Assembly (NCBI GenBank): GCA_025056255.1
Contig: JANWVT010000005.1
Coordinates: 67,001-131,000 of the forward strand
Source of the DNA: Bernardetiaceae bacterium
GTDB taxonomy: Bacteria; Bacteroidota; Bacteroidia; Cytophagales; Thermoflexibacteraceae
Reading direction: 5' to 3'
DNA length: 64,000 bases
Below the pieces are notes generated by a model that saw nothing but the letters and a program-made list of their open reading frames with translations, had not been told where the DNA came from and did no database searches. The position numbers were made by a program, and so were the translations under genes. Each line of letters starts with the position of its first letter. Position 1 is the first letter of the stretch. Of the stretch, positions 18,279 through 20,010 are shown piece by piece.

Positions 18279-19397
18279 TCAATAGACCTTCACTTGGAAA
18301 ATAAAATCCTGCATTTTTTTCAACTGTGCAGTGCGTTTCTGTCCAGCAAGTTTACTTTGCTTAGGCAAATCGAACAGCTCGTCTAACTGCTCAGGAAGAC
18401 TGTCTTTCAAAGTTCGCCAAACAGTAGAAGATTTGAGCGCAAAGGCAACTCCTTCTGCACCAGACAGCTTGCCCGATACTACGCCAATGATATTTCCGCT
18501 GTCGTCGAATACAGGGCTACCGCTATTACCCGGATTGACTGGAATAGAAATCTGGTAGGCAATAGAATCTCCTTCAAAACCTGTGCGTGCACTAATGCTT
18601 CCCTCGCCATACACAATATCATTTTTAGGATACGCCAAGGTAAATACCTCTTCTCCTAAATCTACTGTGCCCTTTTTAAGGGTGTATGGAATTTTTCCGA
18701 AAGAGCGGAAAGTGCTGTCTGTAATTTTGAGGACAGCCAAGTCGGTGCGTTCATCGCCAAAAGCGAGTTCTACCTTGTAGCGCAAGCCGGGCTGCGTAGT
18801 GGACTCAATGAAAACTGAATCGGCTTTGGCTACCAAATGATAACTGGTAATCAGATGTCCTTTTTCTGAAATAGCAAAACAAGTTCCTTCAAAGCGCTGC
18901 GGGGCTGTCATGGTGCGCGGCGCAAATCGGCTAAGGGTGTCTTTGCTGTTTTTAATGTCGCGTTTAATTTGGTCTAATTCGCGACGCAACAGTTTAAGGC
19001 TGCTTTGTTGGCTACGTTCCATATTCCTCAGGTAGCCGAGAGTAAACAAGGTGCTCAGTACAGTAATTAAAGCTACGCTGGCTGCTATGGCAATAGTGGG
19101 TAAGTATTTGGAAACGTAATGACGCCATATTTGTCGGTTTTTATAGACTTTAAGAGCAGCTTGCTGTTCGATGGGGTCTATTGCTGCATGGAATTGGTCG
19201 AGTTTGGTACGAAGCAGGCGGCGTTCTTTCAGTTCGTCCAAATAATTTCTAATTTGCTGATAATCAGCAACTTGCTGAGCTAATATAGGGTTTTCGGCAA
19301 GTTCTTTTTCAAAGGCAAGATACTCGCCAGCCTCCATATCGCCTTCTACATATCGTTCAATTTTGCTCCAAACCAAAAATTGCTCATCAGTCTTCAT
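18279..19397 (-). CDS. Anti-sigma-like membrane protein with a periplasmic trypsin/HtrA-like protease domain
   Basis: 372 residues in four parts. Residues 1-98 are cytoplasmic and resemble the N-terminus of Bacteroidetes anti-sigma factors (IERYVEGDMEAGEYLAFEKE, then LAENPILAQQVADY). Residues 99-121 are one membrane helix. Residues 125-157 are a probable coiled coil. Residues 165-330 form a trypsin-like fold with the complete triad: H187 in TSYHLV, D219 in ERTDLAVLKI, and S292 in GNSGSP, plus IIGVVSGKLSGAEGVAFA. No PDZ domain is present, unlike DegP/DegS. Its ATG overlaps the stop of the ECF sigma gene (ATGA, 19397-19394), so the two are translationally coupled. The inferred role is a sigma-sequestering regulator that senses or processes envelope targets; this combined function is a prediction. 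Confidence 0.88.
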   Translation of the reverse strand: MKTDEQFLVWSKIERYVEGDMEAGEYLAFEKELAENPILAQQVADYQQIRNYLDELKERRLLRTKLDQFHAAIDPIEQQAALKVYKNRQIWRHYVSKYLPTIAIAASVALITVLSTLFTLGYLRNMERSQQSSLKLLRRELDQIKRDIKNSKDTLSRFAPRTMTAPQRFEGTCFAISEKGHLITSYHLVAKADSVFIESTTQPGLRYKVELAFGDERTDLAVLKITDSTFRSFGKIPYTLKKGTVDLGEEVFTLAYPKNDIVYGEGSISARTGFEGDSIAYQISIPVNPGNSGSPVFDDSGNIIGVVSGKLSGAEGVAFALKSSTVWRTLKDSLPEQLDELFDLPKQSKLAGQKRTAQLKKMQDFIFQVKVY

Positions 19398-19948
19398 TTC
19401 AGCTCATTAATTATTTTCTTTAAGCGGTTAAAGCATTTGTATTTCTGTGTTTTAGCATTGTCAGCATTGGTATAGCCCATTTTTTCAGCTATTTCAGCCA
19501 TGCTCATTTCATGCAAATAGTAGTCTTCCAAAATAGTACGACAGGGTTCGCCTAAGCGTTGCATAGCTGATTCTACCATTACTAGCCGTGCTTCTCGTTC
19601 TATGCTGACACTATCTTCTACAAAAGGGATAAACTCCTCAATATCTTTTAAATCTGTTTTAATTTTTTTTGCCTGCAGGCGTTTTAACCAGTGGTTGCGG
19701 CTAACTGAGTACAGAAAGGTTTTAATGCTGCATCGCAACTGGAAATCAGGGCGCTGTACGTTTTCATACAGTACGATAAAAGCTTCCTGATAAACATCTT
19801 TGGCTTCATCTTCTGTGCCATTGTTTAGTACTACTAAGTGTAGTACCATCGGAAAATGAAGTTTATACAGGCGGCTCATAACTGCCTCATCGTTTTCTCG
19901 AAGAGCTTTAATAAAAGTCTCTTCATTAAGCAAGGCAGTTCTTTTCAT
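19394..19948 (-). CDS. ECF-type RNA polymerase sigma factor
   Basis: 184 residues from the ATG at 19948; an alternative ATG at 19960 adds four residues. Region 2 is visible (LYKLHFPMVLHLVVLNNGTE, DVYQEAFIVLYENV, IKTFLYSVSRNHWLKRL) and region 4 has the helix-turn-helix LHEMSMAEIAEKMGYTNADN. These are the two conserved domains of extracytoplasmic-function sigma factors, which direct polymerase to stress or envelope genes. The linker (DLKDIEEFIPFVEDSVSIER) is acidic. The downstream anti-sigma/protease gene starts inside its stop codon. It is divergent from queG with an 86-bp spacer. The cognate promoter cannot be identified from this window. Confidence 0.95.
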   Translation of the reverse strand: MKRTALLNEETFIKALRENDEAVMSRLYKLHFPMVLHLVVLNNGTEDEAKDVYQEAFIVLYENVQRPDFQLRCSIKTFLYSVSRNHWLKRLQAKKIKTDLKDIEEFIPFVEDSVSIEREARLVMVESAMQRLGEPCRTILEDYYLHEMSMAEIAEKMGYTNADNAKTQKYKCFNRLKKIINELK

Positions 19949-20010
19949 TACTCTTTCCATTAATACGTTTCAATCGAAATAAGTAACCCCCAAAGAAAAA
20001 ACTTTTGTCA

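Follow-up and report, generated by a model that had tools for sequence, protein, structure and literature searches.

Can one membrane protein hold an ECF sigma factor inside the cell and at the same time supply the protease that works outside the inner membrane? The question is raised by two neighbouring minus-strand genes in the window, the whole 64,000-nucleotide stretch of DNA that was analysed. A preliminary description of the sequence took the second gene to encode sigma control and periplasmic proteolysis in a single chain. The answer depends on the make-up of this protein, on how faithfully it accompanies the sigma factor, and on what its N-terminal helices do elsewhere.

Organization of the locus

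The sigma factor gene, of ECF type, lies at 19394..19948 (minus strand) and encodes 184 amino acids when counted from the methionine conserved in a 16-sequence alignment. The open reading frame as listed is longer (19394-19960, 188 aa), and the gene had first been drawn to 19960. That frame exists, but the true start is probably at 19948, because Met5 of the listed frame is invariant in 16/16 aligned relatives, and because a conserved promoter-like motif (19960-19989) overlaps the first ATG by its final base. The product matches the NCBIfam sigma70-ECF family (E 1.5e-18) and Pfam Sigma70_r2 (E 4.9e-8). The gene for the membrane fusion protein (18279..19397, minus strand, 372 aa) begins within the sigma stop codon, so that the two share ATGA, a 4-nt overlap; adjacency and overlap are both as originally noted. 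Among relatives the spacing ranges from -43 to +104 nt, so the ATGA overlap is not general. Longer apparent overlaps, at L106, L167, L170, L176 and L180, arise from the choice of start codon.

Architecture of the fusion protein

The domain order given in the preliminary description, a cytoplasmic segment followed by one membrane helix, a coiled coil and a protease, was seen again. Residues 1-95 (19113..19397, minus strand) form an anti-sigma-like cytoplasmic domain of four predicted helices. The only hydrophobic segment of the protein, at about residues 98-123 (feature span from residue 99, 19029..19103, minus strand), makes it a single-pass protein, and an AAS cluster in this membrane helix is nearly or fully conserved. 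A heptad-repeat stalk follows at about residues 127-157 (18927..19019, minus strand); its hydrophobic positions are spaced by 3-4 residues, at 134/137/141/144/148/151/155 across 81 proteins, with 148 mostly Gln, a pattern judged by eye in a region where AlphaFold models a helix with low confidence. The protease domain, of DegS/HtrA type without PDZ, takes up residues 166-338 (18384..18902, minus strand), and the chain closes with a conserved helix and strand, recognised in alignments and model (residues 355-372, 18282..18335, minus strand), which end in VKVY and contain R355, Q358 and V371, invariant in the 81 proteins. The AlphaFold model of the whole protein, built from 16 sequences (mean pLDDT 76.9, pTM 0.53), has three N-terminal helices, a low-confidence helix at 91-157, the protease, and the C-terminal helix and strand.

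An AAS or similar small-residue cluster also opens the membrane helix in L117, L168, L169, L173, L193 and others, which are carriers of the same N-terminal domain with unrelated C-terminal parts; the cluster is possibly a site-2 protease feature. The VKVY tail was considered as a special sigma signal and rejected; since protease relatives that lack a sigma gene carry similar tails, we regard it as characteristic of this protease subfamily.

The protease domain belongs to a well-known fold. Residues 171-306 match Pfam Trypsin_2 with E 5.5e-21, and the catalytic residues H187, D219 and S292 are identical in 16/16 aligned relatives and in 81/81 proteins of the wider set, so that the trypsin-like fold with the His-Asp-Ser triad of S1C (HtrA/DegS-type) proteases is present. 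At least one C-terminal PDZ domain is usual in DegS/HtrA proteins; here the Pfam scan found no PDZ family at E <= 5, and only about 34 residues remain after the protease domain. The earlier account of a trypsin-like domain with a full triad and no PDZ is borne out by these results, and the comparison with HtrA-type proteases that it proposed returned a DegQ-type protease as the best PDB chain in a sequence-profile search (E 4.2e-23). At the level of structure, where the whole-model fold search is informative for residues 162-338 only, all of the top ten Foldseek chains are DegS, the best being DegS without its PDZ domain (E 2.4e-12); VIA-align places DegS and a plant Deg2/Deg9 construct joint first (Z 19.9), with other HtrA proteins tied, and superimposes the domain on DegS with an rmsd of 2.2 over 164 residues. 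A dead or decaying protease was rejected in view of the invariant triad. More distant relatives of the domain (L197-L204, L207, L208 and L022) have varied N-terminal parts, many with signal-peptide-like starts, and similar tails.

Conservation of the sigma-fusion pair

The survey for the same adjacent pair that had been suggested at the outset found it kept at every scale. Among 38 other related genomes, 15 contain a relative of the fusion protein scoring more than 200 bits, and with the window's own protein a sigma relative lies directly upstream in 16/16. A scan of a collection of species genomes gave at least 582 stretches encoding relatives. The best 80, from Pontibacter, Hymenobacter, Rufibacter, Adhaeribacter, Pedobacter, Mucilaginibacter and Chitinophaga, among others, were kept as named loci; they include many congeners and some genomes shared with the 38-genome survey, and 80/80 have the sigma gene upstream (79 by script and L106 by inspection). 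In a phylum sample of 392 genomes, searched at E <= 1e-30 with up to five candidates scored per genome, so that misses are possible, 39 genomes matched; judged by the span of the match, 31 contain one fused gene each and 8 only the protease. All 31 fused genes have the sigma gene upstream (31/31). Fused proteins that start inside the N-terminal domain, without helices 1-2, are found in two of these 31 cases (G284 and G390, loci L205 and L206), where the sigma gene and the protease look intact. In another fused protein, at L324, the N-domain profile gave no match.

The association holds in the reciprocal direction as well. Searched with a profile of the sigma factor at E <= 1e-35, 59 genomes from the order gave 83 matches, with a gap in the scores between 2.1e-65 and 7.0e-55. 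Each of the 26 sigma genes above the gap is followed by a fusion gene (26/26). From the 57 below it, four were inspected (L329-L332): none is near a protease, and all have an N-domain match directly downstream. With protein identities of 37-84%, the pair is found again in Cytophagales, Sphingobacteriales and Chitinophagales, and is for this reason more than a chance neighbourhood. The preliminary description had also held that protease relatives commonly found without a sigma gene would speak against it. Such relatives do occur (8/39 genomes, and L022, L207 and L208) and count in part against the proposal, yet neither an ECF gene nor an N-domain was found in the stretches surrounding them.

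The N-terminal domain is a sigma-linked module

Modelled alone, the N-terminal domain consists of helices 3-18, 23-35, 37-72 and 75-95 (mean pLDDT 85.7), the fourth having the lowest confidence. Its likeness to anti-sigma factors is faint in the window's own sequence. There is no Pfam match; anti-sigma families of NCBIfam are matched only below their cut-offs, and the E-values to anti-sigma profiles, 0.0012 for the whole protein and 0.05 (NF052375) for the domain, are both far below cut-off. Other members of the domain come closer: when matches up to E 10 are counted for 21 members, zf-HC2 is matched by 13 (best 5.1e-4), the anti-sigma family NF052375 by 11 (best 2.6e-6) and PRK13920 anti-sigmaE by 6 (best 3.3e-4), and a single member matches Hemerythrin (E 1.4e-4), better than the best zf-HC2 match. 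Unrelated proteins lead the sequence-profile search of PDB chains, in which RslA appears at E 0.8. Foldseek returned 14 rows, none of them significant (best E 0.97), with RslA at ranks 1-6 and RskA at rank 12, so that anti-sigma chains are 7/14; VIA-align gives Z 5.8 and rmsd 5.4 for RslA and Z 4.6 and rmsd 9.6 for RskA, a level that may reflect a common helical arrangement. Residues 1-96 contain no cysteine, and hence no zinc motif.

In the 59 genomes of the order the N-terminal domain is matched 147 times, fusions included, in 49 genomes. Further N-domain loci examined numbered 31, namely L117, L167-L176 and 20 hand-picked high-scoring rows that seemed to differ from the fusion in frame or score; an ECF gene is directly upstream in 31/31, overlapping in L167 through start choice. 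L168, L175 and L181 are again fusions, which leaves 28/28 non-protease carriers that follow an ECF gene, and on this ground the N-domain is a sigma-linked module. Ten of the non-protease proteins were compared with Pfam: two match TPR, one matches FlgD_ig above its cut-off, one has a weak FlgD_ig match, and six have no match at E <= 0.01, a level at which none of the ten matches an anti-sigma family. The window's own genome has one other N-domain match, in L117 (L117:867-3165, G000 contig C11), where a second ECF sigma gene is overlapped by the gene for a large N-domain protein with a membrane segment; the part of this protein that was examined has no Pfam match.

An anti-sigma role of the domain is suggested by this context together with weak similarity. 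The anti-sigma-like segment of the preliminary description is supported by its constant sigma context (28/28); the window's own profile matches stay below all cut-offs.

A promoter-like motif and small lipoprotein genes

A bipartite promoter-like motif of the general form GGGTTAC-N15/16-GTATTAA is found upstream of these sigma genes. The window's copy, GGGTTAC-N15-CGTATTAA at 19960..19989 (minus strand), was also recovered by pattern scans of the window and of its own genome. Of 116 distinct sequences lying upstream of the sigma gene, 89 contain GTTAC-N18-TTAA; in three simple shuffles no pair exceeded 7. With repeated genomes included, GTTAC-N15-GTAT is present in 91/125 upstream regions, preceded by G in all of them and by GG in 92%; the remaining 34 regions all contain GGGTTAC and agree with GGGTTAC...CGTATTAA at 13-15 of 15 positions, most with one extra spacer base.

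The motif is associated not only with the sigma operon but also with genes for small lipoproteins. In 32 hand-picked genomes that carry the fusion, GGGTTACN14-16GTATTA was matched 72 times and the reversed pattern used as control 24 times, the former being present in 30/32; 32 hand-picked genomes without a fusion match have 11 against 14, in 9/32. By their coordinates 26 of the 72 carrier matches are sigma promoters and 46 lie elsewhere; the stretches around these 46 include 8 of the sigma promoters, which brings the sites inspected to 54. These 46 were filtered for an ATG within 120 nt of the motif that opens a frame of 40-130 aa with a lipobox-like Cys: 28 were flagged, of which L260 is spurious, leaving 27/46, distributed over 21/32 carriers, while the other 19 are at about the control level. 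The same filter selects 0/11 of the motif sites in non-carriers. Around the sigma gene itself, a divergent copy of GGGTTACN14-16GTAT stands 27-51 nt before a gene for a 60-91-aa lipoprotein in 61/80 named loci (best 80). The lipoprotein tails in the named loci consist of 25% T, 18% A, 15% E, 12% V, 8% D and 7% S.

Lipoproteins rich in the same six residues are seen behind the motif at named loci such as L043-L068, and in L258, L280, L283 and L286 two or three lipoprotein genes stand in a row beside the sigma gene, each with its own motif. In three genomes of one family (f24; L253, L254 and L255) the genes behind the motif encode proteins 96, 201 and 96 aa long that match AMPK1_CBM, a domain of glycogen-binding type; one match is over the cut-off and two are just below.

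In the window's own genome the motif is not above control, with 5 matches of a looser pattern against 7; in the window a loose pattern with one mismatch matches twice, against a shuffle mean of 2.73. A copy at G000:C12:54227 lies inside a long open reading frame, for which reason it is taken as chance and was rejected as a target. On contig C96 a copy stands 47 nt before a 67-aa lipoprotein gene (C96:98495-98695; L291:496-696, minus strand); since the own-genome count is at control level, this case depends on its agreement with the relatives. Comparison of this lipoprotein with Pfam gave nothing above cut-off, and its match to the PG1828 lipoprotein family of NCBIfam (E 2.3e-8) reaches 34.6 bits against a cut-off of 50, so that a family name was dropped. 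Literature searches found no link between PG1828 and a sigma factor, and GGGTTAC is in no paper among the matches listed.

Possible mechanism

There is good support for an ECF partner that unites an anti-sigma-like segment and a periplasmic protease: the pair is kept in both directions, the triad is invariant, and the N-domain is linked to sigma genes elsewhere. The original proposal of sigma control and proteolysis joined in one molecule is partly supported, strengthened by the single chain, the constant pairing and the 81/81 triad, and qualified by the weakness of direct anti-sigma sequence similarity. We tentatively favour, at somewhat less than even confidence, a sigma/anti-sigma pair whose anti-sigma factor doubles as an envelope protease and cleaves itself at site 1. 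The N-terminal helices would hold the sigma factor at the inner membrane, as its modular association with sigma genes and its weak fold matches suggest, and the heptad stalk would probably oligomerise the protein and place the DegS-like protease domains side by side. An envelope signal would free the protease, which would cut the flexible stalk in the same subunit or in one beside it; an RseP-type site-2 protease would then cut the membrane helix and release the sigma factor, which would transcribe its own operon and the small lipoprotein genes from the GGGTTAC-N15/16-GTATTAA promoters. A single-pass protein and a site-2 protease in the same cell, which regulated intramembrane proteolysis calls for, are both present; the own-genome M50 (RseP-type) gene (E 7.2e-61) is weak evidence for site-2 release, because 14/14 control genomes also have M50. 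An intact active site would be expected whatever the protease is used for, and does not single out self-cleavage.

The shared motif and the lipoprotein genes suggest a signal connected with lipoproteins or the envelope. A bolder proposal, which we consider doubtful, is a self-contained envelope sensor loop: the regulon would be mainly the sigma factor, its protease-inhibitor partner and the tiny disordered lipoproteins, and the tails of the latter, of which T, A, E, V, D and S make up about 85%, would be soft substrates or ligands of the protease that either occupy it and block self-cleavage, as feedback, or report failed lipoprotein export. If so, a single molecule would combine the roles of inhibitor, site-1 protease and ligand receptor, and its ligand would come from the very regulon that it controls.

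The protease domain might instead serve as an occupancy sensor without self-cleavage, which is possible but on balance unlikely. Binding of a ligand or substrate would alter the oligomer, and the signal would pass through the stalk and membrane helix to loosen the grip of the N-domain, proteolysis serving only to clear the substrate. The helix that the model runs without a break from the membrane to the protease (with low confidence) and the conserved heptads could carry such a conformational signal, and the linker between stalk and protease has no conserved cleavage motif in the aligned relatives; the catalytic serine, however, is invariant in 81/81, a constraint not called for in a pure binding sensor, and in the accounts compared proteolysis destroys membrane-held anti-sigma factors of the kind of RseA and RsgI (PMC8103513, PMC12203970). 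Slightly less likely, the protease is a regulated effector: the anti-sigma part would set the amounts of sigma factor, protease and lipoproteins, another protease would make the site-1 cut, and the fused protease would act on unrelated envelope proteins. Because the sigma gene and the fusion share an operon behind the motif, the protease is among the products that the switch controls; related proteases manage with no sigma gene nearby, and four other Trypsin_2 proteins in the genome could perform site-1 cleavage. Co-expression, however, needs only an operon and not a constant physical fusion. That the N-terminal helices are not anti-sigma at all, and the pair is linked otherwise, for instance by a sigma factor that simply drives a membrane protease, would agree with the missing Pfam match, the far-below-cut-off anti-sigma match, the unrelated leaders of the PDB search and the Hemerythrin hit, but is very improbable given the 28/28 non-protease carriers directly downstream of ECF genes, the anti-sigma matches of other members down to E 2.6e-6 and the 7/14 anti-sigma fold rows.

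Comparison with known systems

Many Bacteroidota thus have an ECF sigma gene beside a membrane protein that is apparently both the holder of the switch inside and a protease outside the inner membrane. According to a survey of class I anti-sigma domains (ASDI), just 6% of ECF genes in Bacteroidetes have a class I gene in their vicinity, compared with 32% across all phyla, and the control of the remaining Bacteroidetes factors is left open there (PMC7406223). The N-domain may account for part of this gap, because stock profiles barely recognise the module and because it is joined to several different C-terminal parts. The same text defines ASDI by four N-terminal helices, three bundled and a fourth (PMC7406223). 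Like the ASDI proteins RslA and RskA, which lead its fold matches, the fusion protein is predicted to have a four-helix N-terminal domain, and its gene lies beside an ECF gene; unlike them, it has only weak sequence similarity, no zinc motif in residues 1-96, and a protease as its extracytoplasmic part.

MarP, a membrane-anchored mycobacterial serine protease that cleaves itself, resembles the other half of the molecule (fold match 3k6z, Z 18.1, rmsd 2.4, 158 residues). The NCBIfam MarP family (NF033740) is matched by residues 110-332 with E 4.7e-15, at 55.5 bits against a cut-off of 250, short of family membership. To our knowledge MarP has no link to a sigma factor, and no PDZ.

The account of Clostridium thermocellum RsgI, as far as available, describes self-cleavage in a periplasmic domain, after which RseP and the ClpP complex act (PMC12203970). 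If the fusion protein is self-cleaving, as we infer, it would likewise be an anti-sigma factor that supplies the first extracytoplasmic cut. RsgI, however, acts on SigI and uses an autocleavage periplasmic domain rather than a trypsin-like protease, and no self-cleaving domain of this kind was found in Pfam and NCBIfam scans of the window protein. A trypsin-like protease fused to an anti-sigma domain is absent from the available parts of the RseA/DegS and RsgI accounts compared, and literature searches found no such fusion described; the ECF reclassification in Nucleic Acids Research, which could have an entry, was outside their coverage.

In E. coli sigma control and site-1 cleavage fall to different proteins: RseA is the anti-sigma factor, and DegS, which carries a PDZ sensor, is the site-1 protease (PMC8103513). 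The present system resembles E. coli sigma-E/RseA/DegS/RseP in its putatively membrane-held ECF sigma factor, its membrane-anchored protease of DegS-like fold and its RseP-type gene, and differs from RseA/DegS in having one chain and no PDZ. The fusion is thereby a minimal system, with the sigma partner and a candidate site-1 protease on one chain, so that the coupling of proteolysis to sigma release can be tested by one point mutation; the shared motif and the lipoprotein genes offer a ready reporter.
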